Below, piece after piece: positions 366-21,612 of a stretch of DNA of 34,112 nucleotides (position 1 is the stretch's first letter; each line of letters opens with the position of its first letter). The stretch spans positions 1-34,112 of the forward strand of contig CALWSS010000064.1 in assembly GCA_944384255.1 (NCBI GenBank), read 5' to 3'. Both the position numbers and the translations under genes were made by a program. Source of the DNA: an uncultured Clostridia bacterium. GTDB lineage: Bacteria; Bacillota; Clostridia; Lachnospirales; Anaerotignaceae. A model generated the notes under the pieces. The model searched no databases and had not been told where the DNA came from. It saw nothing but the letters and a program-made list of their open reading frames with translations.

Positions 366-398
366 AAAAGTTATAAAAAGTTATAAAAAGTTATTAAG
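366..398 (+). repeat. Short tandem array A (GTTATAAAAA units)
   Basis: Three units with core AGTTATAAAA begin with G at 370, 380 and 390, an exact 10-bp period, and the last unit decays to GTTATTAAG. The array begins 7 nt after the rRNA/tRNA terminator and ends about 50 nt before the next -10 element. It belongs to the same repeat family as the arrays at 6895, 8786, 14208 and 21536. Confidence 0.8.
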
Positions 399-443
399 AT
401 ATTTTTAAAAGTATCCGGATTTTAACAATACTTAAATTAAAAA

Positions 444-452
444 TGTTATAAT
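444..452 (+). promoter_or_regulatory. Extended -10 promoter of the ybjQ-like gene
   Basis: TGTTATAAT contains a perfect TATAAT (447-452) preceded by TG with one intervening base, the extended -10 form. No good -35 is visible. The start codon lies 26 nt downstream of the -10. Confidence 0.6.
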
Positions 453-477
453 CAAAAAAACGAAAGGAGTGACTTTT

Positions 478-789
478 ATGTTAGTAACAACAACACCTGA
501 TATACCGGGAAAGGAATATGAAATACTTGGAATAGTTAAAGGCTGTACGGTTCAGTCCAGAAATATTGGCCACGACATAGGTGCCAGTCTTAAAACAATT
601 ATAGGCGGTGAAATTCAGGGTTATACCGAAATGATAGAAAAAGCTCGTGAGATTGCTCAGGACAGAATGATAAATGAGGCTCGTAATATAGGTGCCGATG
701 CTGTTATTAACGCAAGATTTGCCACTTCTTCTGTTATGCAGGGTGCTTCTGAGATATTGATGTACGGAACAGCCGTTAAATTCAAATAA
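478..789 (+). CDS. YbjQ/UPF0145 family protein
   Basis: A 103-aa protein of the YbjQ (UPF0145, DUF74) family, a small soluble fold annotated as a putative heavy-metal-binding domain. The biochemical role is not established. The whole length fits the family: an N-terminal TTTPDIPGKE strand, the G-V-K-G-C-T-V-Q-S stretch, a central helix rich in E/R, and a C-terminal GADAVINARF segment, which is the family hallmark. The start was moved from GTG 469 to ATG 478, because AAAGGAG at 464-470 is the ribosome site and overlaps the GTG. It is followed after 14 nt by a membrane-protein gene, so the two are probably co-transcribed. Confidence 0.9.
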   Translation: MLVTTTPDIPGKEYEILGIVKGCTVQSRNIGHDIGASLKTIIGGEIQGYTEMIEKAREIAQDRMINEARNIGADAVINARFATSSVMQGASEILMYGTAVKFK

Positions 790-803
790 AAAGGCGGTGT
801 TTT

Positions 804-1439
804 GTGGAATTTATATTCAAAACAGAGTCGTTTAACATTTTAGCTTTTAAATATGCTGAGGAGCAATTAATTGAGCCATTAAGAAAAATAACAGAGCTTA
901 ATTCACGTGAAAAATTGCCTTTATTATGGAAATTTTCTGACAGACTTAAAAAACGAAAAAATCATGTTTCGAAAGAAATTATAAACCGCCGTATTAAAAG
1001 ATACAGGGTTTGGGGATTTTTTATATTTTTAATGAGCTTATTTTTGTTTATACCCAGCGTTATGGACACAAAAGAATTATTATTTCCGCTAATTGTAAGT
1101 TCAATTACTATGGCAATAGGTCTGTTTTTTGTATTTTCTTGCAGTGGCAGTTATGATAAAAGGCTGAAAAAGTCGGCTCATCTGCTTGTTAAGTCACTTG
1201 AAAATATAAAGAAATATGAAATTATTTTTAATGATGAAGGCTTTGATTTGAACAAAGCTGATTTTATAAAATACAGTGAAATTAAGCTTCTAACTAAAAC
1301 ACAGGATTTTTATGTAATATTCTACAAAGAAAGTGTAACTGTTTTTTCTGTTAATTCTATTTATAACAACAGTAATAATTTGTTTGAAGAATTTTTAAAT
1401 AATAAAACCAGTTTAAAATTTCAATACTGCCAGTTATAA
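804..1439 (+). CDS. YcxB-like membrane protein
   Basis: A 211-aa protein with a basic cytoplasmic N-terminal part and two hydrophobic segments at about residues 70-90 and 92-112. The C-terminal domain (about 130-205) has the pattern ...IIFNDEGFDL...FIKYSEIK...DFYVIFYKESVTVF. That resembles the YcxB-like domain, a PH-like module on two-TM proteins of unknown function. The start is GTG at 804, preceded by AAGGCGGTG. It sits 14 nt after the YbjQ gene and shares its promoter. A convergent terminator separates it from the minus-strand operon. The family assignment rests on fold-like pattern only; no catalytic residues are apparent. Confidence 0.65.
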   Translation: MEFIFKTESFNILAFKYAEEQLIEPLRKITELNSREKLPLLWKFSDRLKKRKNHVSKEIINRRIKRYRVWGFFIFLMSLFLFIPSVMDTKELLFPLIVSSITMAIGLFFVFSCSGSYDKRLKKSAHLLVKSLENIKKYEIIFNDEGFDLNKADFIKYSEIKLLTKTQDFYVIFYKESVTVFSVNSIYNNSNNLFEEFLNNKTSLKFQYCQL

Positions 1440-1448
1440 AGTAATATA

Positions 1449-1489
1449 AAACGCCCGGTTATAAATAAGTTAATAAACCGAGCGTTTTT
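1449..1489. terminator. Bidirectional terminator
   Basis: AAACGCCCGGTT and AACCGAGCGTTT form a hairpin with one mismatch and an AT-rich loop. T-tracts lie on both sides: TTTTT on the plus strand and a shorter A run on the other side. It sits between two convergent genes and probably serves both. Confidence 0.8.
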
Positions 1490-1497
1490 GTTTGTTA

Positions 1498-2445
1498 TTA
1501 TTTATTAAGTTTTTTATCAACTACAGCACGGACTTCTTTTATGTTCTCTGGTGTAGTACGGCAGCAGCCGCCTATTATTGTGACGCCGCAGTCTATCCAT
1601 TCACTGGCCATAGAGCCGTATGTTCTGCCGTCGCTTCTGCCGTGCCATGTTTTTGTAACAGCGTCGTATATTTCACCACTGTTAGGATATACAGCAACAG
1701 GCTTTGTGCCGCCTGCTTTTGCTTCTTTTATAAGGCTTGGAACAAATTCCTGGGCTGTGCAGTTTATGCCTACAGCTTCAACACAGTCGTAAGCGCTTAA
1801 AGCCTTGGCACAGTCCTTAATTTTTGTGCCTTCGCTTATATCGGTGTCGTTTTTGCAGCTGAAAGAAATCCAGCATTTAGCGTTAAGCTCTTTTACTATG
1901 TCTGCTATTATTAAAGCTTCCTCAAGGGACGGAATTGTTTCCACAGCTAATATATCGCTTCCGGCGTTCCAAAGTAATTCTATTCTGCCTTTATGGAAAG
2001 CTTTTAATTTCTCTTTTGATATGTTGTAGTTTCCTCTGTACTCTGAACCGTCGGCAAGGAATGCACCGTAAGGTCCTACGGCAGCACTTATAATAGGCAG
2101 AACACGGCCTGAATTTTTGCCTTCGCTTTCCCACCACTCATCACGGGCTGAAATAAGTATCTTTACTGAGTCGGTAATAAGTTTTTCGGCCTGCTCTTTT
2201 GTAAAGCCTTTTTTAATAAAGCCCGGAACGGTTGCCTGATAGCTGGCACTTGTGGAGCAGTCTGCACCGGCTTTAAAATAACTGATATGTACTTTTTTAA
2301 TAAGCTCAGGGTTTTCAGCCAGTATTTTGGCACTCCAAAGCTCGTCGTTTAAGTCGCAGCCCATAGCCTCAAGTTCTGTAGCCATAGCACCGTCTATAAC
2401 CATAATACCCAATTTATTTAACACATCGGTAAAGTTCTGACGCAT
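1498..2445 (-). CDS. mmuM: Homocysteine S-methyltransferase
   Basis: A cytosolic 315-aa Zn-dependent enzyme of the PF02574 family that transfers a methyl group to homocysteine to make methionine. MmuM-type members use S-methylmethionine; relatives use betaine or other donors. Zn ligands are visible: Cys229 in GINC and Cys294-Cys295 in GGCCRTTP. The N-terminal DGAMATELEAMG and the central GPYGA/ETIPSLEEA segments are also typical. The start was set at ATG 2445 because GGAGG lies 8 nt upstream; the longer start at 2469 would overlap both that site and the upstream gene. It is the last gene of an operon with a BCCT transporter and an M20 peptidase. The methyl donor is not determined by sequence. 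Confidence 0.9.
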   Translation of the reverse strand: MRQNFTDVLNKLGIMVIDGAMATELEAMGCDLNDELWSAKILAENPELIKKVHISYFKAGADCSTSASYQATVPGFIKKGFTKEQAEKLITDSVKILISARDEWWESEGKNSGRVLPIISAAVGPYGAFLADGSEYRGNYNISKEKLKAFHKGRIELLWNAGSDILAVETIPSLEEALIIADIVKELNAKCWISFSCKNDTDISEGTKIKDCAKALSAYDCVEAVGINCTAQEFVPSLIKEAKAGGTKPVAVYPNSGEIYDAVTKTWHGRSDGRTYGSMASEWIDCGVTIIGGCCRTTPENIKEVRAVVDKKLNK

Positions 2446-2459
2446 TTTTGATTCCTCCG

Positions 2460-3599
2460 TTAAAAACATAATTTTTTAACTATATTATAATAAGCCTCAG
2501 TAGCTTTTTCAATATGGCTTAATGGTATCTGCTCGTTTGGTGTGTGGGCAAATTTAAAATCCCCGGGACCGAAATATACAACAGGTATACCGTACATGTT
2601 TATAAATCCGCCTTCACCCCAGCCTGTCATAACACCTAAAGGTGTATCAGAGCCTAAAGTTTTGTCTATAACACTTTTTATTGTTAAAAAGTCTTTGTTT
2701 TCCCTGTCGGTTAAAACAGAGTTCCAGTTGCCTATAATAGTTGCTTTGGCTTTAAAATCCGGGTCACAAGCGCTTAATTTATTAATAATTGTGTCCATTT
2801 CTTCCTGAAATTCTTCAGCACTGCCGCCTGGAAGGTATCTTTTATCTATTGTTATTTTGGCATAAGGCGGTACTACATTAGGTGTTGAGCCGCCTTGAAT
2901 AACGCCTACACTCATTGCCGGCTCACCGTATATAGGGTGTGCCTTGTCTTTATATGTGGCTATAAGCTTTTTAACCTCAATTATAAATTCCGCTGCCATG
3001 TATATGGCGTTCTTTCCTAAGTGAGGTATGCTTGAATGAGCACTTTTGCCGAAAAATTCAACTTCCATCCATGCTTCGCCTTTATGTGCTGTGTGAATTT
3101 GTAAATTTGTCGGTTCTGATATCATGGCAAAATCAACTTTTGGAAGGTATTCTTTAGAAAGAGCTGTTTTTATTTCTTCTCCTGCATATTCCTCATCCGT
3201 TGAAAGCATAAGGTATAACTGGCCTTTAAGAGCGCTGTTGTTAGCTGCTGATATAAAAGCCGAAATTATGGCTCCACAGCCGCCTTTCATGTCGGCAACA
3301 CCTCTGCCGTACATAATGCCGTCTTTTATTTCGGCACTAAAGGGGTTTTTCATGCCTTCCGGTGAAACAACGTCAAGGTGGCCTTCCAAAAGAAGTTTGA
3401 AATCCGAGTCATGGCCTTTAACTGATGCAATTAAAAACGGTGCGTCGGTATCAAAGTCATACATTTTAATTTCTGCATTGGTATTTTGTGAAATTATACT
3501 TTGTGCATACTTTAAAGCTTCTCTTTTTCCGTCTATATTAAATGAATTTATTTTTGAAAGCTCTGCTGTGTATTCAATGGCTTTGTCTGCTATGCTCAT
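2460..3599 (-). CDS. M20 family metallopeptidase (ArgE/DapE/ACY1-like)
   Basis: A 379-aa two-zinc amidohydrolase or peptidase of the M20 family. The metal and catalytic residues are all present: His74-x-Asp76 in EGHLDVVSP, Asp103 in GRGVADMKGG, Glu136-Glu137 in STDEEYAG, Glu162 in ISEPT, and His352 in FAHTPNE. A lid or dimerisation domain is inserted at about residues 175-285, as in ArgE, DapE and carboxypeptidase G2. The start ATG directly follows the transporter stop codon, with GGAAAGGATG as ribosome site. It is the middle gene of the BCCT-M20-HMT operon and probably hydrolyses an acylated or peptide-linked form of the imported compound; the substrate is unknown. Confidence 0.9.
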   Translation of the reverse strand: MSIADKAIEYTAELSKINSFNIDGKREALKYAQSIISQNTNAEIKMYDFDTDAPFLIASVKGHDSDFKLLLEGHLDVVSPEGMKNPFSAEIKDGIMYGRGVADMKGGCGAIISAFISAANNSALKGQLYLMLSTDEEYAGEEIKTALSKEYLPKVDFAMISEPTNLQIHTAHKGEAWMEVEFFGKSAHSSIPHLGKNAIYMAAEFIIEVKKLIATYKDKAHPIYGEPAMSVGVIQGGSTPNVVPPYAKITIDKRYLPGGSAEEFQEEMDTIINKLSACDPDFKAKATIIGNWNSVLTDRENKDFLTIKSVIDKTLGSDTPLGVMTGWGEGGFINMYGIPVVYFGPGDFKFAHTPNEQIPLSHIEKATEAYYNIVKKLCF

Positions 3600-5195
3600 T
3601 TATTCCACATCCTTTCCTTTTTCCCAGTTGTATGCTTTGTTTTTGTCAACTGCATTTAATATTTCTCCGCTTTGAATGTCTTTTCGTATGGCTTTAATAA
3701 ATGCCCAGAAAAGAACAACAAGAGCAATAAGCACCGGAAGGGCAGAAATTGTAATAAGTGACTGTATTGTGTTAAGTACGTTAAGACCTTCCACATTGTG
3801 TTCAAGTATAAGTATTCCAACAGGTATTATAAGGAAGAGAACACACCAGAAAGTTTTGTATAATGAGTTTGGTTCTTCATCAGGTTTTAAGCCTATGGAT
3901 GTATACATACTGAGGGCTGTTCCGTTGCTTGTGGCTGTTGTGGCAAGGTTAAAGAATATAAGTATCATAAACACTATAATGGCTAATTTAGGAATCGGCA
4001 TTGTTTCAAGTACCATAAGAGTAACGCCGTTATTGCCTATATCATTGATAACTCCTGAAAGGTTAAGTCCGTGGAAAAGCTCCTGACCCATACCGTAGTT
4101 GCCAAGTATGCCGAATGTTATCCAGCAGGCTAAAGGTGCCCAGAAGCAGTTGGCAATGGCTATTTCCTTAAATGTTCTGCCGTAAGATGTTCTTGCAATC
4201 CAAATACCACACATAAAAGATATGGCAACATACCATGCCCAGTAGAATATAGTCCAGCTCTGTATAAAGCCTGTCTGTGCTATGGCATCTGTATTAAAGC
4301 TCATTCTTACAAACTCACGGATATTTGTGCCTATAGCCATAACAATGTTGTTAAGTATAAAGCTTGTATCGCCTACTACCAGTACAAAGGCAAAAAATAC
4401 TATAGCCAGTATTACGTTAAAATCACTTATTTTGCCCATGCCTTTGGCAATGGATTTTGATGTTGAAAGTGTAAAGAATACGCAGAAAACAAGTATAACG
4501 CCAATTTTAAGACCAAATGAGTTAGGTATGCCCAGTATTGAGCTTGCAAGCTCGCCTAAAACAGGTGTGCCTATGCCTACAGTTGTCATAATAGCCATAA
4601 AGTAGCAGAAAACTATTATTGCATCAATTACTATTCTTAAAACTTTCTGCCATGCGGCATTGCCGCCTACTACATTGGAGCAGAGAGCCGAAATTCTTAA
4701 ATCGCCTATTTTTTTGTTCCAGTAAAGGTATCCAATTGCTACGCCCGGAATAAGATAAAATGCCCATGCAGAAAATCCCCAGTGGAACATGCCGTAAGCT
4801 GATGCATACTCGTAAGCTTCTATTGAGCCCGGCTCAATATTAAAAGGTGTTCCGTTAACGTAATACATCCATTCACACATACCGAATATAAGTATTCCGG
4901 CGGCAAGAGCGGAGCAAAGGTTCATTGTAATCCAAGTAAATGTTTTGTAATGCGGTTTGGCGTTTCTACCGCCCAGTTTTATATCGCCCCACTTAGTTGT
5001 TAAAAACAGTATTGTAATTATGGCGTATGTAACACCTATAAGCAGGAAAAACCATGCCATGTCTGTAGTTATAAAATTATAAATAGTGTTTATAACAGTT
5101 ATAACAGTATTAGGTACAAGTATAATAGGTATAATAACAGCTACAAGTACAATAATGGCTATTGCTATAAGTGTTTTGTTTGCATTTTTAAACAT
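3600..5195 (-). CDS. BCCT family transporter (betaine/carnitine/choline type)
   Basis: A 531-aa polytopic membrane protein with about 12 hydrophobic segments. It carries the BCCT signature WTIFYWAWY in the eighth core helix region and the downstream GIWIARTSYGRTFKE loop. BCCT proteins import quaternary ammonium or related zwitterions by ion symport or exchange. The aromatic box is altered: the classical W-W-I-S-W reads W-Y-V-A-I here, and the helix that usually ends in ..EP reads FGMCEW. This argues for a substrate other than, or in addition to, glycine betaine. The start was set at ATG 5195 because GGGGAG lies 9 nt upstream; the ATG at 5204 abuts that site. It is the first gene of the operon. 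Confidence 0.92.
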   Translation of the reverse strand: MFKNANKTLIAIAIIVLVAVIIPIILVPNTVITVINTIYNFITTDMAWFFLLIGVTYAIITILFLTTKWGDIKLGGRNAKPHYKTFTWITMNLCSALAAGILIFGMCEWMYYVNGTPFNIEPGSIEAYEYASAYGMFHWGFSAWAFYLIPGVAIGYLYWNKKIGDLRISALCSNVVGGNAAWQKVLRIVIDAIIVFCYFMAIMTTVGIGTPVLGELASSILGIPNSFGLKIGVILVFCVFFTLSTSKSIAKGMGKISDFNVILAIVFFAFVLVVGDTSFILNNIVMAIGTNIREFVRMSFNTDAIAQTGFIQSWTIFYWAWYVAISFMCGIWIARTSYGRTFKEIAIANCFWAPLACWITFGILGNYGMGQELFHGLNLSGVINDIGNNGVTLMVLETMPIPKLAIIVFMILIFFNLATTATSNGTALSMYTSIGLKPDEEPNSLYKTFWCVLFLIIPVGILILEHNVEGLNVLNTIQSLITISALPVLIALVVLFWAFIKAIRKDIQSGEILNAVDKNKAYNWEKGKDVE

Positions 5196-5292
5196 AAATA
5201 TCATCTCCCCATTTGTTTTATTTTTTAATTTAAATTTTGGACTGGCCTTTCTGCAATTTTAATAAGCTGCAGTAAAATTAAATATAAAAAAC

Positions 5293-5320
5293 AGTATACG
5301 GCAATATTTGATTAAAACAA
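5293..5320 (-). promoter_or_regulatory. Candidate promoter of the BCCT operon
   Basis: On the minus strand TTGTTT (5315-5320) and TATACT (5293-5298) are separated by 16 nt. The -35 is only a half match. It lies ~100 nt upstream of the BCCT start in a divergent spacer that also carries the MATE promoter. Confidence 0.4.
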
Positions 5321-5367
5321 TAAAAAATCCATATATTTTTAAATAATTATAAATTGTTTTTTCTGTA

Positions 5368-5395
5368 TTGAAAAACAATGGCCTTTTGTTATAAT
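5368..5395 (+). promoter_or_regulatory. Promoter of the MATE gene
   Basis: TTGAAA (5368-5373), 16-nt spacer, perfect TATAAT (5390-5395). Transcription would start near 5402, giving a ~35-nt leader with GGGAGGAG before the ATG at 5437. Confidence 0.75.
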
Positions 5396-5436
5396 GTTCT
5401 GGAGTAAATATTGGGAATATTTGGGAGGAGATTATT

Positions 5437-6825
5437 ATGAGAAGGGAAAATGATTTGGGCCGGGACCCTATAGGGCCTTTGGTTCTGCGTCTTGCAGTGC
5501 CGTCTATGATAGCACAGTTTGTAAATGTGCTATACAGCATTATAGACAGAATGTATATAGGAAACATAAAAGGTGTTGGGGATTTGGCTTTGGCCGGTGT
5601 TGGGGTATGCGGGCCTATAGTAACCCTGTTAAGCTCTTTTGGCACTCTTGTGGGCCTTGGGGGCTCAATACTTATGGCCATGCGTTTAGGCGAAAACAAC
5701 AAAAAAATGGCTTATAAGCTTTTGGCCAACAGTTTTCTTATGCTGACTGTTTTTTCCGTTGTACTTACAATTATTTTTCTTTTAATAAAGAATAAACTTC
5801 TTATGTGGTTTGGTGCCAGTGAAACTACATTTGCTTATGCCAATACATATTTAAGCATATACACCGCAGGCACATTTTTTGCCCTTATGGCAATGGGCCT
5901 TAATTATTTCATAAACTGTCAGGGCTTTTCCACAGTTGGCATGATGTCGGTTGTTATAGGCGCTGTATCCAATATTATATTAGACCCGGTTTTTATATTC
6001 CTTTTTGATATGGGTGTTGCAGGAGCCGCTGTAGCTACGGTTTTAAGTCAGTTCTTTTCATTTGCTTTTGCCGCCTCGTTTTTGTTCGGCAAAAGACCGC
6101 CTGTTAAAATTACATTCGGTGGGTATGATTTTAAAATGTGGCTTAAAATAATTTCTGTTGGTCTTTCGCCTTTTTTAATACTTGCAACTGACAGTGTTAT
6201 AATAATAGTTATGAACGCTGTATTGCAGAAAGCCGGCGGTGCTCAGGGGGATACACTTATAACATGTGTAACCATTATTCAAAGCTATTTTATGCTTATT
6301 ACAGGGCCTATGATTGGCATAAGCGGCGGAACACAGGCCGTTATCAGCTTTAACTACGGAGCGGCACAAAGCGGCAGAATTCGCCGGGCAGAAAAAGACA
6401 TACTTCTTTTATGCATAGCATTTACAGTTATAATGTTTGTTGTATCCCGAACGGTGCCGCAGTATTTTGTTCAGGTATTTACTTCTTCACCGGAGCATAT
6501 AGAGCTTTCTGTTTGGGGAATAAAAGTATTTACACTGGGCATTATACCTTTAAGCTTTGAATATGTCCTTGTAGACGGCCTTACGGCTCTTGGCCGAACT
6601 AAAACGGCATTATGCATTTCAATGTTCAGAAAATGTTTTTACTGCTTTAATGTTGTTTTGTTTGCTTTTGTATTTACGGCAAAAGACGCATTTTTTGCCC
6701 AGCCGGTATCGGATATTACGGCATCGGTTATTGCAATAACTGTATTTTTGCTTGTATTTAACAAACACCTGAAAAAAAGGGAAGAACGCTATGCCGCAGA
6801 GGGAATAGGCCTGTCGGCTAAATAA
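5437..6825 (+). CDS. MATE family multidrug/Na+ efflux transporter
   Basis: A 462-aa integral membrane protein with about 12 hydrophobic helices in two pseudo-repeats. The N-terminal D-P-I-G-P-L-V-L-R-L-A-V-P-S-M-I segment, the YSIIDRMYIGNIKGVGDLALAG loop region and a second-half G-G-T-Q-A-V-I-S-F-N-Y-G-A segment are typical of clostridial MATE exporters. These couple efflux of cationic compounds to Na+ or H+ entry. Its length equals the family norm and GGGAGGAG precedes the ATG. It is monocistronic, with its own promoter and terminator. The substrate cannot be predicted. Confidence 0.93.
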   Translation: MRRENDLGRDPIGPLVLRLAVPSMIAQFVNVLYSIIDRMYIGNIKGVGDLALAGVGVCGPIVTLLSSFGTLVGLGGSILMAMRLGENNKKMAYKLLANSFLMLTVFSVVLTIIFLLIKNKLLMWFGASETTFAYANTYLSIYTAGTFFALMAMGLNYFINCQGFSTVGMMSVVIGAVSNIILDPVFIFLFDMGVAGAAVATVLSQFFSFAFAASFLFGKRPPVKITFGGYDFKMWLKIISVGLSPFLILATDSVIIIVMNAVLQKAGGAQGDTLITCVTIIQSYFMLITGPMIGISGGTQAVISFNYGAAQSGRIRRAEKDILLLCIAFTVIMFVVSRTVPQYFVQVFTSSPEHIELSVWGIKVFTLGIIPLSFEYVLVDGLTALGRTKTALCISMFRKCFYCFNVVLFAFVFTAKDAFFAQPVSDITASVIAITVFLLVFNKHLKKREERYAAEGIGLSAK

Positions 6826-6849
6826 AGTATAAATTAATTATTAATTAAT

Positions 6850-6894
6850 AAAAAGCGCTGAATTATTGATTGAAACAATATTCTGCGCTTTTTT
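6850..6894 (+). terminator. Rho-independent terminator of the MATE gene
   Basis: AAAAGCGC and GCGCTTTT pair at the base of an extended hairpin (inner ATTG/CAAT) followed by TTTTTT. Its T-tract runs straight into array B. Confidence 0.85.
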
Positions 6895-6940
6895 CTAACT
6901 TTTTTCTAACCTTTCCTAACCTTTTCTAACTTTTCCGACT
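6895..6940 (-). repeat. Short tandem array B (CTAACTTTTT units)
   Basis: CTAAC begins at 6895, 6906, 6916 and 6926, followed by a decayed CGACT near 6936. Spacings are 11, 10 and 10 bp, with pyrimidine runs between units. On the minus strand it reads GTTAGAAAA(A), so it is the inverse orientation of arrays A, C and E. It starts at the T-tract of the MATE terminator. Confidence 0.8.
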
Positions 6941-7253: not shown

Positions 7254-7282
7254 TTGCAAAAATATTCCGTTGGTGTTATATT
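7254..7282 (+). promoter_or_regulatory. Promoter of the CoA-transferase gene
   Basis: TTGCAA (7254-7259), 17-nt spacer, TATATT (7277-7282). The predicted transcript starts near 7289, leaving a leader of about 160 nt. Confidence 0.65.
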
Positions 7283-7302
7283 TACTTAAGAGGATATAAG
7301 GT

Positions 7303-8785: not shown

Positions 8786-8856
8786 GTTATAAAAGAGTTA
8801 TAAAGAAGTTCTAAAGAAGTTATAAAAGAGTTCTAAAGAAGTTCTAAGAAAGTAAA
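8786..8856 (+). repeat. Short tandem array C (GTTMTAAAGAA units)
   Basis: Units begin GTTAT or GTTCT at 8786, 8797, 8808, 8819, 8830 and 8841, with a decayed GTAAA at 8852, an exact 11-bp period throughout. Each unit carries an A-rich tail (AAAAGA, AAAGAA). It lies between the CoA-transferase terminator and the antiporter gene and is the most regular member of the family. Confidence 0.85.
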
Positions 8857-8947: not shown

Positions 8948-9901
8948 ATGGATAATATTATAGTATATGTTTTGTTTGCTGTGGGATTAGTTCTTATAGT
9001 TAAGGGCGGAGACTTGTTTGTTGATGCTTCTTCTGAAGTGGCAAAACTTTTAGGTGTGCCGGAATTTATAATAGGCGCCACTATTGTAAGCTTTGCTACT
9101 ACAATGCCGGAGCTTATAGTTTCCGTTCTGGCATCTTTAGACGGACGCCTTGATATGGCTGTTGGTAATGCCATAGGCTCAGTTACGGCAAATACCGGCC
9201 TTATAATGGCTCTTTCAATTATTTTTATGCCGTCAAGGGTTGAACGAAGAATGTATGCACCTAAAAGCTTTATGCTCCTTTGTGCTGTAGTTTCACTGTG
9301 GCTTTTATGTGCCAAAGGCACGCTTTATGCCAAAAGTGCCGTTGTACTTTTTGTAATTCTTGGTCTGTACATAACAGAAAATATCCAAAGCGGAAAACGT
9401 AAAATGATTAAAACAACAGGATATATTTCAAAAAGAGGCCTTGTTTGGCAGATGCTGTATTTTGTAATAGGTGCCGCTGCTGTTGTAATGGGCTCAAGAC
9501 TTTTGGTTGATAACGGCTGTATTATAGCCCGGCTTTTAAAAGTACCGGAAAACGTAATAGCCATTACAATGGTGGCTATAGGCACATCCCTTCCTGAATT
9601 GGTAACGGCTGTAACTGCCATATCCAAAAAAGAGGCGTCTTTAACAGCCGGTAATATTATAGGTGCCAATATTATTGATACAGCACTTATACTGCCGGTA
9701 TGTGCTCTTTTAAGAGGCGGAAGCTTTGCAATTAGTCCTCATACAATACTTTTGGATATACCGGCATGCTTGGCAGTTGTGTTAATAGGTATACTGCCTA
9801 TGATTATAACGGGTAAATTTAAGCGTATTCAGGGTTTTGCACTTATGGCGGTATATTTAATATATATTTATATAGCCTGCTTTATAAGCCCTTTAAATTA
9901 G
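8948..9901 (+). CDS. CaCA family Ca2+/Na+ antiporter (YrbG-like)
   Basis: A 317-aa membrane protein with about ten hydrophobic helices and the two inverted alpha repeats of cation/Ca2+ exchangers. The first repeat contains ATIVSFATTMPELIVS...GNAIGSVTANT (about 45-85); the second contains AIGTSLPELVTA...GNIIGANIIDTA (about 215-260). The acidic ion-binding Glu in each PEL motif is present. In the first repeat the usual G-T-S-L-P-E is F-A-T-T-M-P-E and S-N-I-F-N is S-V-T-A-N, a mild divergence. GGAGG lies 7 nt before the ATG. It is monocistronic. The ion actually exchanged is not set by sequence. Confidence 0.9.
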   Translation: MDNIIVYVLFAVGLVLIVKGGDLFVDASSEVAKLLGVPEFIIGATIVSFATTMPELIVSVLASLDGRLDMAVGNAIGSVTANTGLIMALSIIFMPSRVERRMYAPKSFMLLCAVVSLWLLCAKGTLYAKSAVVLFVILGLYITENIQSGKRKMIKTTGYISKRGLVWQMLYFVIGAAAVVMGSRLLVDNGCIIARLLKVPENVIAITMVAIGTSLPELVTAVTAISKKEASLTAGNIIGANIIDTALILPVCALLRGGSFAISPHTILLDIPACLAVVLIGILPMIITGKFKRIQGFALMAVYLIYIYIACFISPLN

Positions 9902-14179: not shown

Positions 14180-14207
14180 AAGCGCCGGATTTTTCCGGCG
14201 TTTTTTT
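14180..14207 (+). terminator. Rho-independent terminator of lrgAB
   Basis: CGCCGGA (14183-14189) and TCCGGCG (14194-14200) form a perfect stem with a T4 loop, then T7. Its T-tract leads directly into array D. Confidence 0.93.
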
Positions 14208-14290
14208 CTAACCTTTTTCTAACCTTTTTCCTAACTTTTTCTAACTCTTTTCTAACTTTTCCAACTTTTCTAACTTTCTATAACTTTTTT
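14208..14290 (-). repeat. Short tandem array D (CTAACTTTTT units)
   Basis: About eight to nine units. CTAAC starts at 14208, 14219, 14231, 14241 and 14252, then CCAAC at 14261, CTAAC at 14270 and a variant CTATAAC at 14278. Spacings are 9-12 bp with T-rich filler. It reads GTTAGAAAA on the minus strand, the same orientation as array B. It lies between the lrgAB terminator and the M18 peptidase promoter. Confidence 0.85.
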
Positions 14291-14428: not shown

Positions 14429-14494
14429 AGGCTTTAATATGCGGATTTTTGTAGTTTTATGTATTAAAAAAGCATATAACGGAGGTGTTTTATT

Positions 14495-15874: not shown

Positions 15875-15934
15875 TATTATAAATAAAAATTGGGATTGTT
15901 GTATTTATTGGAATATTGCGTTTTAGGAGGGTAT

Positions 15935-16138: not shown

Positions 16139-16750
16139 ATGAAAAAACAGACAAAACATTGGTATGATTATCTTTATATTTTTTCGGCGGCATACCTTAT
16201 ATTGGGGTTTTTTAATATACTTTTTGCTTATTTGGGGCTGATATGCTTTTTTACGCCTTTGGCTATAGCCGTTATAGGCGGTAATAAAGCTTACTGCAAC
16301 AGGTACTGCGGCAGAGGCCAGCTGTTTTCGCTTTTAGGCGATAGGTTAGGGCTTTCGTCAAAAAGAGATGTGCCTAAGTTTATTAAAACAAAATATTTCA
16401 GATACGGCTTTCTTATATTTTTTATGATAATGTTTATTAACATGCTCTTTAATACATACCTTGTTTTTTCAGGTGCAAGGGATATGAAAGAAGTTGTAAC
16501 TCTTTTATGGACATTTAAACTGCCTTGGAACTGGGCATATTCCGGCGGTGTTGCACCGGGTGTTGCACAGTTTGCTTTCGGTTTTTACAGTGTAATGCTT
16601 ACATCAACGGTATTGGGCATTATAACAATGATTCTTTTTAAACCACGGTCTTGGTGTGTTTACTGCCCTATGGGTACAATGACACAGGGTATATGTTATT
16701 TAAGAAACAGCGGTAAGCTTAAAAAAGAAGAAAATAAAACAGAGGAGTAA
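16139..16750 (+). CDS. NapH/YccM-like 4Fe-4S membrane protein
   Basis: A 203-aa membrane protein with about four to five hydrophobic segments and two short cysteine motifs: CNRYC (Cys53, Cys57) after the second helix, and CVYCP (Cys173, Cys176) with Cys186 near the C-terminus. The R-x-W-C-V-Y-C-P-M-G pattern resembles the membrane part of NapH/NosR/RdxA-type polyferredoxins, but the soluble double-cluster C-terminal domain of those proteins is missing. The 67-aa ferredoxin encoded immediately upstream may supply it. Transfer of electrons between a cytosolic ferredoxin and a membrane or exported partner is inferred. The true acceptor is unknown. Confidence 0.75.
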   Translation: MKKQTKHWYDYLYIFSAAYLILGFFNILFAYLGLICFFTPLAIAVIGGNKAYCNRYCGRGQLFSLLGDRLGLSSKRDVPKFIKTKYFRYGFLIFFMIMFINMLFNTYLVFSGARDMKEVVTLLWTFKLPWNWAYSGGVAPGVAQFAFGFYSVMLTSTVLGIITMILFKPRSWCVYCPMGTMTQGICYLRNSGKLKKEENKTEE

Positions 16751-16759
16751 TTAAACTAA

Positions 16760-16793
16760 ATTATTTGGTATTTAATTTATAATACCGGATAAT
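16760..16793 (+). terminator. Hairpin after the ferredoxin/NapH-like pair
   Basis: ATTATTTGGTATT and AATACCGGATAAT give 13 contiguous pairs (two T-G wobbles) around an 8-nt loop. No T-run follows, so it may be a weak terminator or an mRNA 3'-end stabiliser. Confidence 0.45.
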
Positions 16794-16904
16794 ATATTTG
16801 CTCTATGTAATTAAGTCTTAACTGAAATAATTGTCCGTTTGTTCAGCAGTGCAATATAAGAATTTTATTAAGTAAACTTAAGAAACTAAAAATCAAAGCA
16901 CTAA

Positions 16905-16943
16905 AAAAGCACGAAATACTTTTTATTTGTATTTCGTGCTTTT
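16905..16943. terminator. Bidirectional terminator
   Basis: AAAAGCACGAAATAC and GTATTTCGTGCTTTT form a perfect 15-bp stem with a 9-nt T-rich loop; T's follow on both strands. It serves the minus-strand copper-amine-oxidase-domain gene and probably backs up the plus-strand operon. Confidence 0.9.
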
Positions 16944-16985
16944 GTTTGTTAAGTAATAACAGAATAATTTATAGTTTTAAAAGAC

Positions 16986-18641
16986 TTATGCTGCTGTATC
17001 AGCTGTTGGTTCTTCAACGGCTTCATCAGTAGTTGTGTCAGCAGCAGGTTCTTCAACAGCTTCATCAGTAGTTGTATCAGCAGCAGGTTCTTCAACAGCT
17101 TCATCAGTAGTTGTGTCAGCAGCAGGCTCCTCAACAGCTTCATCAGTAGTTGTATCGGCAGCAGGCTCCTCAACAGCTTCATCAGCCGGTTCTTCAGGTA
17201 CTGCTATGCTCTGGTCAGGAGCAACCTCAAGGTTTAAATCGCCATAAACAGGCATTCCTATAAGATTTGCAAGGTCAAGTATATTTTCACTTTCAGGCTC
17301 TGTAATAATAGCTTCTTCTGTAGGCTCAGCTGTTATTGTGCCATCTGCTGTAAACTGGAATATACCTTCAAGACCCATATCCATGTTAATTGTTACTGTA
17401 TCTAATGTAGCATTAATATCCATTGATGTAGTAACATTACCGTTTTGAGATGCTATAGCTTTAATGCCAAAACCTGTTATATTGTCTAATGTGTCTGTTG
17501 AAACAACGTACTGCATTGTAAAGTAAGCGCCGTTTCCAAGGTCTGTAGTTGAAGATGAAACATATCCGCCTTCTGTAGCTTTAAATGCACTGTCTGAGAA
17601 CATGCTCATCATTGAGCTGTAAACGGCAATCATAGCATTTGATTCATATACATTGTCCATAGGAACCATGTCAAGAGCTAAAAGCATTTGGTCTTCAAAA
17701 GACATGTCTTTGCTCTGAGATATTAAGCTTTCAAGATTAATGCCTAACTGATTGTAAAATTCGGCTACATCAAGTTTAACCCATGTATCAGCTGAAAGAC
17801 CTAATGATTCAAATAAGTTAGATGTAGCATAAAGAATAAGGTTTTCACCGTCTATTATAAAGTCAAATGTCATGTTTTGGAACATTGCGGCCTGTTCTTC
17901 AACAGCGGCTTTCTGCTCGTCTGTATAGCCTTCTGTTACCAAGTCAACAATTTTTTCAAGGTCTCTTGCGTTTAAGTTAATGGCACATGCAAGGTCGGCA
18001 TCTGTAGCATTTGCAACACCGTTAAGCTGAATGTCGCCTGAAAGAGCAATATCCTGAAGTCCGTCATTTGCAGTCATGCTGAAATTAATTGTGCCGGCAA
18101 GTTTCTGGCTCTGATCAGAAGATTGGTTTGCAAAAGCCATAATCTGGTTTGCCAATTCAAATGAACCGCCGTTATCGGCAATAAATTTGTCTTTATCAAT
18201 AATTATTACTGCGCTGTTTTCGCTGTCCCAGCCTACAGTACAGTCAAGAGCCTGAGCGGCAAATCTTACAGGCACATAAACCGTATCATCACTAATAAAT
18301 GAAGGAGCGTCTGTTGTGATTTTATTAAGAGCGCCGTTTTCGGTAATTGAAACAATGTCTCCGCCAACGGCAAATGTAACTGTTTTGTCTCCGTCCAATG
18401 CTGTAACTGTTTTAGCTGAGGCTGAGTACTCAACATCAGCACCTAAAGACTCAAATATGCTTCTTACAGGAACATATACCCGGTCGTCTTTAATTATGCC
18501 TTCAGCGTCTTCAATTTTTGTTCCGTTGATATAAATATCAGCGTTGTTTTCTTCGTTATCTTCGGCCATAACAAAAGTGTAGGATGATATGCTCATACAT
18601 GCACACATTGCCAGTGCCATTGCTTTTTTAAAAAATTTCAT
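16986..18641 (-). CDS. Secreted protein with copper amine oxidase N-terminal (stalk) domain
   Basis: A 551-aa exported protein. Residues 1-26 form a signal peptide (KK, hydrophobic core, ...VMA). Residues ~34-150 hold two copies of the pattern R/T-V-Y-V-P-V-R-x-x-x-E/A-x-L-G/D, typical of the Cu_amine_oxidN1 (PF07833) domain, which is non-catalytic and common on clostridial surface proteins. The middle ~300 residues, rich in D/N/Q/T, are not recognised; they contain LDMVPMDNVYESNAM and repeated beta-type strands. The C-terminus is a low-complexity acidic tail of five 13-residue repeats (DEAVEEPAADTTT). No anchor motif (LPXTG) or SLH domain is seen. GGGGG lies 8 nt before the ATG. It is probably cell-surface associated or secreted; function unknown. 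Confidence 0.8.
   Translation of the reverse strand: MKFFKKAMALAMCACMSISSYTFVMAEDNEENNADIYINGTKIEDAEGIIKDDRVYVPVRSIFESLGADVEYSASAKTVTALDGDKTVTFAVGGDIVSITENGALNKITTDAPSFISDDTVYVPVRFAAQALDCTVGWDSENSAVIIIDKDKFIADNGGSFELANQIMAFANQSSDQSQKLAGTINFSMTANDGLQDIALSGDIQLNGVANATDADLACAINLNARDLEKIVDLVTEGYTDEQKAAVEEQAAMFQNMTFDFIIDGENLILYATSNLFESLGLSADTWVKLDVAEFYNQLGINLESLISQSKDMSFEDQMLLALDMVPMDNVYESNAMIAVYSSMMSMFSDSAFKATEGGYVSSSTTDLGNGAYFTMQYVVSTDTLDNITGFGIKAIASQNGNVTTSMDINATLDTVTINMDMGLEGIFQFTADGTITAEPTEEAIITEPESENILDLANLIGMPVYGDLNLEVAPDQSIAVPEEPADEAVEEPAADTTTDEAVEEPAADTTTDEAVEEPAADTTTDEAVEEPAADTTTDEAVEEPTADTAA
16989..17183 (-). repeat. In-frame 39-bp tandem repeat (5 units)
   Basis: Five consecutive 39-bp units at 16989, 17028, 17067, 17106 and 17145 encode DEAVEEPAADTTT. 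The C-terminal unit has diverged to DEAVEEPTADTAA; the other four differ only by silent changes. The tract is likely to vary in copy number between strains. Confidence 0.93.
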
Positions 18642-19005
18642 AACGTTGCCCCCTTATAATTATGTTTATTAAAATTTTATTTATTTCATTTTAACATACC
18701 AGAGGGACTGATAATATTACAACTTTATTAAATTTTGTAAATAGTGTTAAATTAAATAGTTTTAATAATTAATGTCAATATTTATTTGCTATTTATATCT
18801 GCTCAATAAATTGAAAAGAACTGAATTATGTATAAAATATGTGACAATTAGGAAAATATTATGTTAAATCTGCAAAAGGCAATTGGTGCATGCCAAAAAA
18901 AATATTTTAAATGAATTTAATAAATATAAAATAATGTACCTTATTACTATAAAATTAGTGGAATATCCCAAAATTTCAGACACATTAACAGCAATTGACA
19001 ATTTA
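18642..19005. other. AT-rich divergent spacer, no gene seen
   Basis: Between the minus-strand surface-protein gene and the dctP promoter. It contains GGGGG as the ribosome site of the minus gene near 18650 and little else. A 70-codon reading frame crossing 18883-19095 has no ribosome site and overlaps the dctP promoter, so it is not annotated. No minus promoter could be assigned with confidence. Confidence 0.5.
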
Positions 19006-19034
19006 TTGACAGTTCAACATCTTTGTGTTATCAT
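19006..19034 (+). promoter_or_regulatory. Promoter of the first dctP-like gene
   Basis: Perfect TTGACA (19006-19011), 17-nt spacer, TATCAT (19029-19034). A second TTGACA lies 11 bp upstream at 18995 without a matching -10. The predicted start near 19041 leaves a ~255-nt leader. Confidence 0.75.
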
Positions 19035-19040
19035 ACAACT

Positions 19041-19295
19041 GTGGATAAAAGAGTGGATACTGTATACAACTTTGTTAGATTTAGCTATAACATAGTTTGA
19101 TATAGTTATGATATATAAAAACGAATACAAATAATTGATTTTGCCGCAAAATTATGTTCCATACGGCATTATCGGACTGACCGCCATACCAGCGTGAGGA
19201 CTCTTTTGGTCTAAGTACTAAGCTTGTTATTGAGGGCAAATGTTAATTAAATAACATTAATTTAATACATTTTTTATTAATCAAGGGGGATTATT
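19041..19295 (+). promoter_or_regulatory. Long 5' leader of the first dctP-like gene
   Basis: About 255 nt with no ORF. The only G+C-richer island of the spacer, 19141-19215, contains small helices such as GCCG/CGGC and GGAC/GTCT and ends in TTTTGGTCTAAG. An inverted repeat TGTTA-ATTAAA-TAACA lies near 19241-19256, before the GGGGG ribosome site. It looks structured but matches no riboswitch I recognise. Confidence 0.45.
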
Positions 19296-20459
19296 ATGAA
19301 AAAAAGAGTTTTATCTGTATTAATAGCAGCTTCAATGGCTGTTGTTGCTTTTGCCGGCTGTGGCTCAAGCTCATCAACATCTGGCTCAGCTTCAGGTTCT
19401 GCTGCAGCTTCAGGTTCTGCATCAGCTTCAACATCAGCAGCTGCTACAGGCGATGCTGAGTACGCTATGATTTCAGGTACAACAACACCTGACAACCATC
19501 CTTACAACTTAGGCCTTGTTAAAATGGGCGAGCTTTTAAGCGAAAAGACAAACGGTGCTGTAACTCTTGACGTATTCGGCAACTCACAGCTCGGAAGCGA
19601 AAGAGACCTTATCGAAGGCCTTCAGCTTGGCTCAGTTCAGGTAACATGCGTTTCTACAGCTCCTCTCGCAGGTTTTACTGATTCATTTTTAGTATTCGAC
19701 CTTCCTTTCATTTTTGAAACATCAGAGCAGGCAAGAGCCGTTATGGACAGCGAAGTTGGTACTCAGATCCTTAACTCAGTTGAAGATCAGGGATTAAAAG
19801 GTCTTGCATGGTTTGAAAACGGTTTCAGAAATGTAACAAACAACGTAAAACCAATTACTGTTCCTGAAGACTTAAAGGGTATCAAGATCAGAACAATGGA
19901 AAACCAGATGCACATGGCTGCATTCCAGATTATGGGTTCTGACCCTACACCTATGGCAATGGGCGACGTATTCACAGCTCTTCAGCAGGGCACAATCGAT
20001 GCACAGGAAAACCCAGTTCCAATCATCGAAACAAACAAATTCTATGAAGTACAGAAATATATCTCTATGACAGGCCACCTCTTCAGCCCGGCTCCTGTAT
20101 TTATAGCTAAAGATTACTATGATACACTTCCAGCTGAATATCAGACAGCTGTAACAGAGGCTGCTGCTGAGGCAACACCTTATCAGAGAGAGCAGATCGA
20201 CGAACAGAACGTAACAGGTCTTGAATCACTTACATCAAACGGTATGGAAGTAAACGAGCCAGAGAAAGCTCCATTCCAGGAAGCAACAGCTCCTATCTAT
20301 GATGAGTACATCAAAGATGAAACAGGCTGTGTATCACCTGACATCTATTCACAGGTTGAAGAAATCATTGCTCAGTATCCAGCTGACGGAGCTGCAGCAA
20401 CTGATGCAGCATCTTCAGCAGCTACATCTTCAGCAGCTACATCTTCAGCAGCTGAATAA
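19296..20459 (+). CDS. TRAP transporter substrate-binding lipoprotein (DctP type), copy 1
   Basis: A 387-aa extracytoplasmic solute receptor. It has a lipoprotein signal peptide (residues 1-21) with lipobox F-A-G-C at Cys22, a Ser/Ala-rich linker to ~50, and a DctP domain from ~54 to ~360. Typical segments are GSVQVTCVSTAPL, LKGIKIRTMEN (with the conserved carboxylate-binding Arg), NPVPIIETNKF and the C-terminal helices. The tail (about 362-387) is Ala/Ser-rich. TRAP receptors bind organic acids and feed a DctQM permease; no dctQ or dctM is in this window. AAGGGGG precedes the ATG. Codons are strongly biased (ATC, AAC, TAC), suggesting very high expression. It is about 88% identical to copy 2 at 21707 by eye alignment. 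Confidence 0.95.
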   Translation: MKKRVLSVLIAASMAVVAFAGCGSSSSTSGSASGSAAASGSASASTSAAATGDAEYAMISGTTTPDNHPYNLGLVKMGELLSEKTNGAVTLDVFGNSQLGSERDLIEGLQLGSVQVTCVSTAPLAGFTDSFLVFDLPFIFETSEQARAVMDSEVGTQILNSVEDQGLKGLAWFENGFRNVTNNVKPITVPEDLKGIKIRTMENQMHMAAFQIMGSDPTPMAMGDVFTALQQGTIDAQENPVPIIETNKFYEVQKYISMTGHLFSPAPVFIAKDYYDTLPAEYQTAVTEAAAEATPYQREQIDEQNVTGLESLTSNGMEVNEPEKAPFQEATAPIYDEYIKDETGCVSPDIYSQVEEIIAQYPADGAAATDAASSAATSSAATSSAAE

Positions 20460-20478
20460 TTAAGAAATTTATGCTCCT

Positions 20479-20510
20479 AAAAGGATTTTTTACCCTTATT
20501 TAATCCTTTT
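20479..20510 (+). terminator. Hairpin downstream of dctP copy 1
   Basis: AAAAGGATT and AATCCTTTT pair around a 14-nt loop that contains TTTTTACCCTTA. The same loop sequence occurs after copy 2 (around 22806). It ends in TTTTT and may be a first terminator. Confidence 0.55.
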
Positions 20511-20516
20511 TAAAAT

Positions 20517-20551
20517 TAAAAAGACTCCGGTTTAAAGCCGAAGTCTTTTTT
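20517..20551. terminator. Bidirectional terminator
   Basis: AAAAAGACTCCGG and CCGAAGTCTTTTT pair with one mismatch around a 7-nt loop, with T-tracts on both strands. It lies between converging dctP copy 1 and the minus-strand gene at 20565. Confidence 0.85.
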
Positions 20552-20564
20552 ATTTTAGTTTTTT

Positions 20565-20966
20565 TTACATTTTAGATATTGTGTTTTCAAGTATCTGTGC
20601 AGCATCAAGAACACATCCGTGGCAGTCCCTCAAAACTGTTCCTGTCTGTATGCCCTTTAATTCCTTGCATACAACGGATTTGTTCTTTTCCATAAATTCT
20701 TTTGTAATTGATGAGCAGAGCTTAAAAGAATCTTTTTTGCTTAAGCCTGCCTGCTGTGCCTTCATACCGGCAATCATTACGGCAGCGCTTACGGCTCCAC
20801 AGCTTCCTTCCATGTTGCCCATGCCTACACCAAGACCGCTTGTAAGATTAAATATTGTTTTTTCATCTAAACCGACCTCATCGCTGAAAGCACATGCCAA
20901 TGCCTGAGCACAGTTATATCCGTTGTAATGGTTTTCGCCGGCTTTTTCAATTCTGCTGTTCTCCAT
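20565..20966 (-). CDS. C_GCAxxG_C_C family protein
   Basis: A 133-aa small soluble protein of the family named for its cysteine pattern (PF09719). The motif set is complete: YNCAQAL (Cys19), G-M-G-N-M-E-G-S-C-G-A-V (Cys56), VVCKELK (Cys100) and DCHGCV (Cys115, Cys118). The family is thought to be redox or metal related; no reaction is established. The ribosome site AAGGAG lies 9 nt before the ATG. It is a single gene on the minus strand between the two dctP copies, convergent with the first and divergent from the second, and there is no evidence that it acts with them. Confidence 0.88.
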   Translation of the reverse strand: MENSRIEKAGENHYNGYNCAQALACAFSDEVGLDEKTIFNLTSGLGVGMGNMEGSCGAVSAAVMIAGMKAQQAGLSKKDSFKLCSSITKEFMEKNKSVVCKELKGIQTGTVLRDCHGCVLDAAQILENTISKM

Positions 20967-21486
20967 TTTAAGTATCTCCTTACATTAAATTTTAATATAC
21001 ATTGTATAATATAAATTAAATTTTTTAAACAGTTATTTTTGGTTGTTATCCAATATAGGTAAATTAAAATTAAAAAATGGATTTTAAACAGGTATTTTTG
21101 CAGGCTATTTTATATAATTTTAAATGGAAAAAGCTGTATATTTTGATATACGGCTTTAAAAACTGCTGTTTATTACACAAAAAATGGAATAACTGAATAA
21201 ATGTTTGTGTAAAACGCTAAAGAGTAAGGCTTATTGCACAAACATTAAAGGTATTAATTGAGCTTTATTAGTTTTTAATAAATACTTTAATTTTTTATTG
21301 TAAGTTTTAGCTGATTTATAATTTGAATTTTAAATCTGTTTTGTGGAAAAAACTTGAATTTTAATCTAAAAAATTAAAATTTGATTTATTATTAAAATTT
21401 TAAATGCCGTTTCAGCAGGCCAAAAATTAAAAAAACTCTCTAATATTTTAAAATATTATGCTACGGTTAGATATTGGCCATATTCG
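20967..21486. other. AT-rich divergent spacer, no gene seen
   Basis: About 520 nt with no plausible coding region. It holds a direct repeat, TTTTAAACAG-T/G-TATTTTTG (about 21023 and 21086), and a hairpin at 21130-21157. A candidate -10 for the minus-strand gene (TATTAT or TATACA, about 20998-21012) is too ambiguous to call. Confidence 0.5.
21130..21157 (-). terminator. Isolated hairpin with minus-strand T-tract
   Basis: AAAGCTGTATAT and ATATACGGCTTT give 12 pairs (one wobble) with a TTTG loop. On the minus strand the stem is followed by TTTTTCC, a terminator-like tail, but no gene on that strand lies immediately upstream of it. It could end an unannotated minus-strand RNA from about 21160-21480. 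Confidence 0.35.
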
Positions 21487-21516
21487 TTGACACTTTCTTA
21501 TTCGTGATGATATTAT
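21487..21516 (+). promoter_or_regulatory. Promoter of the second dctP-like gene
   Basis: Perfect TTGACA (21487-21492), 18-nt spacer, TATTAT (21511-21516). The predicted start near 21523 would place array E inside the leader RNA. Confidence 0.7.
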
Positions 21517-21535
21517 AGCCCTGCTTACAGGAACA

Positions 21536-21612
21536 GTTATAAGAAAGTTATAAGAAAGTTATAAAAAAAGTTAGAAAAAAAGTTAGAAAAAAGTTATAAA
21601 AAAGTTGTTAAG
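21536..21612 (+). repeat. Short tandem array E (GTTATAAGAAA / GTTAGAAAAAAA units)
   Basis: GTTAT or GTTAG starts at 21536, 21547, 21558, 21570, 21582 and 21593, ending with GTTGTTAAG at 21604. Spacings are 11, 11, 12, 12, 11 and 11 bp. It is purine-rich on the plus strand. It lies between the -10 element and the ribosome site of dctP copy 2, so it is probably transcribed. Confidence 0.85.

Follow-up and report, generated by a model that had tools for sequence, protein, structure and literature searches.

Five arrays of short direct repeats lie in the window, the 34,112-nucleotide stretch of DNA analysed here, which is contig 64 (CALWSS010000064.1) of the 2.25 Mb genome of an uncultured Clostridia bacterium of the family Anaerotignaceae (assembly GCA_944384255.1, hereafter G000). 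They belong to a genome-wide, genus-restricted family of arrays in which the strict unit GTTA(G/T)AAA precedes a variable tail and units are mostly 9–13 bp apart. Several loci show that an array of this family can originate in a local seed, with nothing copied in from other places. The best explanation we can offer for the family, in which we place slightly less than even confidence, is that about one helical turn of DNA is duplicated locally and in tandem, in dependence on the motif, and that purifying selection filters the outcome.

A family of repeat arrays restricted to one genus

All five arrays were found where the initial annotation had placed them (Table 1), and its description of a real family, with one core and with units that differ between arrays, was borne out. 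Over the whole of G000, the three-unit pattern gave 103 matches against 0 for the reversed control; since these matches overlap, the number of arrays is lower. A uniform caller found 54 arrays of at least three units in 408,450 bases of chosen G000 stretches (window included, about 18% of the genome). These stretches, as well as those of the same-genus genomes G002, G004, G001 and G005, were mostly picked for array content or synteny, and their densities are not genome averages; whole genomes were covered by the G000 pattern count and by a pattern search in 60 genomes only.

The counts were far above those of shuffled sequence. In 244 spacers of G000, 46 arrays of at least three units were called, whereas 30 dinucleotide shuffles gave 0.1 on average and 2 at most; the G002 spacers held 28, versus a mean of 0.03 and a maximum of 1 after dinucleotide shuffling. 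When 60 permuted motifs were used instead, the best one gave 24 arrays versus the 54 observed in G000, and 13 versus 33 in G002, several of the top permuted motifs being shifted readings of the same arrays (by eye). Outside arrays, the single motif was not enriched in G000 spacers (5 copies of GTTAGAAA versus 3.3 expected, 9 of GTTATAAA versus 12.0), so that in this genome the motif is special only as arrays. Single GTTAGAAA copies outside arrays numbered 8 in G002, versus 4.3 expected. A single-site regulator motif was set aside because singles are not enriched in G000, although GTTATAAA is in G002.

The 60 genomes searched comprised G000 and 59 relatives, from the same genus, the same family (29) and the same order (24). 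Within the genus, matches versus reversed control were 62 versus 5 in G002, 23 versus 0 in G004 and 8 versus 4 in G001, the last two including chance-like matches (by eye). In G003 and G006, for which there are pattern counts only, 5 versus 1 were obtained in each, and in G005, 0 versus 3. The 53 genomes outside the genus gave 70 matches altogether versus 145 for the control, with at most four in any one. Identity to G000 over the comparable positions of three genes is 91% for G002, 89% for G004, 87% for G001 and 77% for G005. A small FastTree tree, built on three genes with incomplete data, grouped G005 with G002 and was not used.

A viral carrier was considered but not retained. In IMG/VR, 40 stretches matched a stricter pattern, and five of them hold two arrays or one of at least five units. 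One viral contig of IMG/VR (L248:10-127) carries 11 GTTA(G/T)AAA-like units at an exact 11-bp spacing.

Anatomy and spacing of the units

Tandem Repeats Finder gave 95 repeats of G000 and G002 whose consensus unit could be rotated to GT, T/C, two free bases and A. In these 95 units, position 3 was T in 94, position 4 was A in 88 and position 5 was G or T in 93. Two common unit types, GTTAG and GTTAT, recur at many loci. The motif is also constrained within arrays, where variation was 2–4% at GTT, 6–8% at positions 4–6 and 3.5% at positions 7–8; in the tail it reached 10–12% at the last two positions and ranged from 4 to 15% in the inner part.

Intervals between units in G000 were of 8 bp (3 cases), 9 (8), 10 (48), 11 (71), 12 (37) and 13 bp (12), and in G002 of 8 bp (1), 9 (3), 10 (44), 11 (25), 12 (17), 13 (3) and 14 bp (4). 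Many arrays hold one spacing, unlike that of other arrays; array D of the window is irregular. Among the 42 arrays with at least four units, the mean unit exceeded 11.2 bp in 15, and the coherence of A-tracts at 10.5 bp was higher than 0.8 in 22 and lower than 0.5 in 10. From this spread, helical phasing is common but not defining, and bending of the DNA by phased A-tracts, put forward in the initial annotation, is weakened as the organizing principle by intervals that run from 8 to 14 bp and by the ten arrays of low coherence.

One G000 spacer (L182:8030-8071) contains 4.7 copies of a 9-bp repeat of GTATAAGAA, which looks like an outlying member without GTT.

Turnover of arrays and birth from local seeds

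Arrays are mostly unconserved at orthologous spacers. For the 50 G000 arrays, a syntenic spacer was found in G002 for 16, in G004 for 8 and in G001 for 4; conversely, 7 of the 31 G002 arrays had one in G000. At the 16 spacers of G002, three or more units in the same orientation were kept in four cases and two units in three, and the remaining nine held at most one unit. Three or more units were kept at 1 of 8 spacers in G004, at none of the 4 in G001 and, for the G002 arrays, at 3 of 7 in G000. Two checks had been proposed at first, counts against shuffled sequence and conservation at orthologous spacers: the former came out strongly in favour of the family, whereas the latter mostly did not. 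Where G002 held no more than one unit (nine arrays), the spacer was longer in G000 in eight cases, by 13–108 bases. Two of the nine share a single G002 spacer, which has an oppositely facing array of five units on the other side of the same hairpin.

At several loci the relatives give a direction to the change. This is so at four loci, at which copies were counted by eye and the comparisons are between species. At L045:4317, G004 and G002 each hold a single copy of a local 13-bp word, TATAAGTTACAAA, of which G000 has three that differ by small changes; G001 has a single copy with one change, the word is diverged in G005, and the locus was unreadable in G003 and G006. At array A of the window, one copy in G004 corresponds to three in G000, whose spacer is 20 bp longer. 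At the start of a serpin gene, one GTTATGAARAAR-like unit is found in G004 and in G001, three 12-bp units (one degenerate) in G002 and five in G000. In an EamA gene, the long array of G000 corresponds to a single GTTAAGAAAAAA word in G004; no array is present in this gene in G001, G002 and G005.

Altogether, 14 loci at which a relative holds at most one unit were inspected by eye. A clear GTTA seed was visible in six (arrays A and E of the window, L045:4317, the serpin gene, the EamA gene and L047:9427), two were ambiguous, five had none and one was unreadable. Some units are idiosyncratic and match the local seed, GTTAC at L045:4317 and GTTATG at the serpin start, which makes copying from elsewhere unlikely there. 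The statement of the initial annotation that the units are not simple slippage copies of one sequence has to be softened accordingly: the births that can be traced copy one local seed, and it is the seed motif that is shared between loci.

Arrays inside genes

The description of the arrays as intergenic holds for all five in the window and does not extend to the family. Arrays were found inside four Pfam-confirmed genes, encoding an EamA transporter, a ROK protein (G000 and G002), a rhomboid protein (G002 and G004) and a serpin; the array of the latter begins 3 bp before its open reading frame (ORF). All intervals in these coding arrays are of 12 bp, except one of 9. The arrays occupy different frames and orientations, that of rhomboid being antisense, and encode unrelated repeats (VRKK/VGNN, KELG, YFSN and VIKK). 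Only one of 79 noncoding arrays had all its intervals in multiples of three (Fisher p about 3e-6 versus coding). Similarly, two-unit chains 12 bp apart made up 11 of 26 in ORFs versus 1 of 26 in noncoding DNA (p = 0.002), and chains spaced by multiples of three numbered 13 versus 5 (p = 0.04); about 21 of these 52 chains are expected by chance, and codon periodicity may contribute. The coding arrays support stepwise in-frame growth rather than providing a clean test.

Genomic context

The context was analysed for 81 of 87 array calls, the six inside long ORFs being dropped. A detected hairpin abuts the A side of the array in 13 of the 81 and the G side in one (p = 0.0018), versus 63 and 64 of 1232 at random placements; the detector missed the hairpin at array B, so the counts are lower bounds. 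Read on the other strand, the A-side arrangement consists of a hairpin and, after it, a T-tract plus CTAAC in repeated form.

Genes were present on both sides of 75 arrays, in tandem for 54, convergent for 15 and divergent for 6 (286, 75 and 82 in background spacers). In the tandem spacers, GTT was in the sense orientation 37 times and antisense 17 times (p = 0.009). GTT lay on the leading strand, as judged by GC skew, in 34 of 47 arrays in G000 and 20 of 30 in G002; gene direction and replication strand are confounded in these orientation counts. Several sense arrays occupy short gaps between genes of the same strand. Sense U-tracts in such gaps would be harmful. The pattern is read as a trace of purifying selection on insertions.

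One convergent hairpin is common to G000 (L039:13715-13930) and G002 (L163:9870-10080). The array stands on its right in G000 and on its left in G002, and in both genomes it is the A-tract or T-tract side that faces the hairpin.

Specificity and a possible mechanism

Noncoding tandem repeats of other motifs, with a period of 8–14, numbered 10 in 408 kb of G000, 10 in 485 kb of G002 and 4 in 246 kb from twelve loci of other genomes (one of them from G005), the last being a small control of unmatched composition. No array of the family was found outside ORFs in these twelve loci. Some of the G000 repeats counted as other motifs, for example GTGATAAAGATAA, resemble variants of the family. As repeats of other motifs are not clearly raised, general repeat instability does not explain the family, and the duplication appears to depend on the motif.

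In the mechanism that we propose, an existing local seed, GTTA-N-(A-rich), would be duplicated in tandem by about one helical turn, mostly 9–13 bp. Every new copy would bring the motif with it, hence a growth of the array unit by unit. The surroundings of the seed would set the tail and the period, hence arrays that are fairly uniform within a locus and different between loci. Arrays would subsequently become shorter, or decay through point mutations. The duplication would act at the level of DNA, on either strand and inside genes too, and the mostly intergenic, often gene-sense pattern would be what purifying selection leaves. In this lineage, the motif would make DNA prone to duplication through either a lineage-specific, sequence-specific factor or an intrinsic property; the remaining loci were probably born in the same way, and most arrays are presumably near neutral. 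A more precise version, which we regard as possible, if somewhat unlikely, is that GTTA-N-AA is recognized by a lineage-specific factor under whose action DNA polymerase or repair copies about one helical turn twice, turning seeds into self-extending arrays.

Several observations weigh against motif-dependent duplication. Of the 14 loci inspected, five show no seed (array C, L035:1195, L182:9851 and the G002 arrays L164:9183 and L165:7517), two are ambiguous (array D and L035:2537) and L039:9784 is the unreadable one. Some of the "seeds" could be remnants of lost arrays, which is unlikely only where several relatives agree, and in one case the G002 spacer exceeds that of G000 by 106 bases. By eye, TTAA recurs as a direct repeat after 10 bp in the seed of array A, and ordinary slippage could make use of it. 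Tail positions −3 and −5 vary by only 4–6%, and the slower change at GTT and AA fits selection for binding too. Single GTTATAAA copies outside arrays exceed expectation in G002 (36 versus 16.4), so that the special status of the motif as arrays is less clear in that genome. An out-of-frame array breaks its ORF and is then counted as noncoding, so the in-frame statistic is partly ascertained; moreover, two weak ORF calls in L042 were set aside, one with intervals [9,9] in a doubtful ORF and one with [12,8], poor units and out of frame. Finally, Ku was found in none of the eight genomes searched, several of which are incomplete drafts; a break followed by fill-in and end joining is thus not a simple answer, and a staggered break with Ku end joining was set aside on this ground. 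The small tandem duplications at eukaryotic breaks, as presented in the portion of PMC8355091 considered here, are a parallel at most.

Alternative explanations

The main rival to local duplication is a repeat-binding protein, as the initial annotation had envisaged. Here a protein that polymerizes or makes rings on direct repeats spaced by one helical turn (RemA-like, BldC-like or an unknown nucleoid protein) would bind GTTA(G/T)AAA, and selection would keep the duplicates. This is possible, if somewhat unlikely. It agrees with GTT and AA being the least variable positions, and with the intervals of 10–11 bp that make up 119 of 179 in G000 and 69 of 97 in G002. If several sites were needed, the lack of enrichment of singles in G000 would be expected. 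The RemA family was detected in all eight genomes searched (the seven genus members G000–G006, and G012), and RemA protects at least six 7-bp AT-rich repeats that are 3 bp apart, in the experiment cited from PMC8481266. However, RemA is also present in G005, which has no matches; most arrays are missing from orthologous spacers, and array D is decayed in G002. The location of arrays inside genes, in short intergenic gaps and after hairpins, in both orientations, also argues against selected binding. Selection would moreover need many motif-bearing duplicates to act upon, yet duplicates of other motifs are not clearly raised. RemA and Rho were both set aside as discriminating factors, being present in G005.

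The motif would be no more than a slip-prone sequence if AT-rich spacers were subject to ordinary replication slippage or to a mutator that destabilizes repeats in general. We consider this unlikely. Units are locally similar, whole-unit gains are seen, and the direct repeat in the seed of array A would suit slippage, but tandem repeats built on other motifs show no clear excess, the family is missing from other genomes of the order and from G005 of the same genus, and no microhomology was seen by eye at the L045:4317 junction.

A role as terminator or Rho element, in which the opposite strand, reading (TTTTTTCTAAC)n, would supply hairpin tails or a G-free rut-like RNA, is very improbable: the hairpins on the A side and the presence of Rho in all eight genomes searched speak for it, but 68 of the 81 arrays have no detected abutting hairpin (a count that the hairpin missed at array B makes an upper limit), the 37 to 17 bias towards GTT sense is the wrong way round for U-tract termination of the neighbouring genes, and Rho occurs in G005 too. 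A C-containing, G-poor RNA on the transcribed strand would fit the 17 antisense arrays of the 54 in tandem spacers and not the 37 GTT-sense ones. As a general account, the terminator tail or Rho site was set aside on account of the arrays lacking a detected hairpin and of the orientation bias.

Insertion from other arrays by recombination, transposition or templated addition is equally improbable, since idiosyncratic units match their local seeds and inspection of the aligned flanks by eye showed no target duplication (no search for carrier genes was made), even though GTTAG and GTTAT types recur at many loci, the gain of an array can leave the flanks intact and 5 of 14 loci have no seed.

The arrays of the window and their neighbourhood

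The GTT strand is the forward one for arrays A, C and E and the reverse one for B and D (Table 1). The names of the neighbouring genes (MATE, exchanger, DctP, CoA-transferase) were read by eye from the ORFs.

Table 1. Repeat arrays of the window (positions in the 34,112-nucleotide stretch; strand is that of GTT).
Array	Position	Strand	Composition and placement
A	366..398	+	GTTATAAAAA x2 + seed copy GTTATTAAG; between tRNA-Met terminator and next gene
B	6891..6940	-	4 strict GTTAG-type units + one degenerate
C	8786..8856	+	six GTT(A/C)TAAA units, exact 11-bp spacing
D	14204..14290	-	8 units, intervals 10,9,9,11,10,12,11; directly after terminator-like hairpin
E	21536..21612	+	6 units + GTTGTTAAG flank copy

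The exact 10-bp period described for the three units of array A is correct. Its third unit, GTTATTAAG, is the copy also found in G004; that one copy is all the G004 spacer holds, G001 has none, and the syntenic gene pair was not found in G002 or G005. Array B sits in the T-tract tail of a terminator-like hairpin after ORF 5437-6825 (MATE-like); at the corresponding spacer, G002 has a degenerate two-unit version and G001 none. Array C lies between a terminator-like hairpin and ORF 8948-9901 (exchanger-like). An exact 11-bp period over seven units had been reported for it, which is true of the six GTT units, the supposed seventh being the flank GTAAAATAAG; the same flank is found in G002 and G004, both without an array there. 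No array was found at the orthologous spacer of C in G001, G002, G004 and G005. At that of D, a decayed array is present in G002 (three units called) and none in G001, G004 and G005. Upstream of array E there is a TTGACA/TATTAT pair that, by eye, resembles a promoter; the array presumably lies in the 5′ leader of the DctP-like ORF 21689-22786. The E spacer retains only GTTAAGAAA in G004 and a remnant in G002, and has no copy in G005; no syntenic pair was found in G001.

The ORF with array E in its presumed leader is the second of two adjacent, closely similar DctP-like solute-binding lipoproteins (19296-20459 and 21689-22786, by eye), and the ORF list shows no obvious transporter membrane subunit between them or directly after. 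At the beginning of the window (1-327), the 3′ end of a 23S rRNA is followed within about 60 bp by tRNA-Thr and then tRNA-Met; no 5S rRNA scored above the Rfam gathering threshold anywhere in the window. In the 551-aa ORF 16986-18641, which starts like a secreted protein (by eye), a 39-bp in-frame repeat of 4.9 copies (16995-17185) codes for a EEPAADTTTDEAV-type acidic tail.

Relation to known repeats and significance

A search of the accessible literature by literal repeat strings and by repeats in the lineage found no report of the present repeat. The closest known systems are the STAR and TAACTGA dispersed direct repeats: the family is of the same kind as these and identical to neither by sequence. 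As in that kind, one motif forms direct-repeat arrays at many dispersed loci, abundance is lineage-specific, positions are mostly unshared between species, and copy number at a locus changes between species. Common to all three is a constant motif in a locus sequence that is private, at positions that are largely species-specific.

STAR elements of Staphylococcus, in the sections of Purves et al. (2012, PMC3532100) drawn on here, are direct repeats scattered through intergenic DNA, in which a short motif is constant and the sequence between copies is particular to the locus; their loci differ between species, with uneven lineage-specific abundance and local expansion or contraction, and their function, origin and propagation mechanism are stated to be unknown. 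The same sections give a GC-rich 14-bp motif, T(G/A/T)TGTTG(G/T)GGCCC(C/A), spacers of at least 40 bp and locations that are stable within S. aureus (PMC3532100). The present family differs by its AT-rich 8-bp core and its intervals of 8–14 bp; in addition, births from a single seed can be observed, and some of the arrays are located within genes. In sequence and spacing it is therefore not STAR proper.

TAACTGA repeats, in the part of MacGregor (2015, PMC4679880) cited here, occur in Beggiatoaceae, Cyanobacteria and Bacteroidetes, with 169 sets in one genome. Like the present arrays, they form many dispersed sets of short direct repeats, mostly intergenic and some in ORFs. Their positions are common to two very similar Cyanothece strains and not to a third, and a repeat-binding protein has been proposed for them. 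They have a fixed 7-bp unit, are mostly in sense just before start codons in the main genome studied, and span distant phyla (PMC4679880). By contrast, the arrays described here repeat at close to one helical turn, their units have a degenerate tail and they belong to a single genus, and they are not made of a 7-bp head-to-tail unit. The STRR heptamer repeats of heterocystous cyanobacteria are also dispersed short tandem arrays within one lineage, with fixed 7-bp units.

Two other close systems are protein targets. The RemA targets upstream of epsA in Bacillus subtilis are, like the present arrays, AT-rich direct repeats with a 10-bp period; in the account of PMC8481266 used here they are poorly conserved repeats upstream of target promoters, whereas the present family has a fixed motif at dozens of loci. 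BldC sites, as outlined in the portion of PMC5859096 consulted, are a variable number of head-to-tail asymmetric repeats that are bound cooperatively; they differ in being a 9-bp AATTNNNN(C) repeat in Streptomyces promoters.

Dispersed direct-repeat families of bacteria present one motif at many loci, each locus keeping its own surroundings. Here relatives show the steps, with 1, 1, 3 and 5 copies at one gene start, which offers a testable origin for scattered repeats. The question becomes why one motif duplicates. A protein that duplicates the motif, if there is one, would represent a novel type of mutator; should selection be responsible, the arrays would mark a genome-wide binding protein. 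A sequence-targeted tandem-duplication activity, if true, would possibly be a general origin of families such as STAR and TAACTGA.

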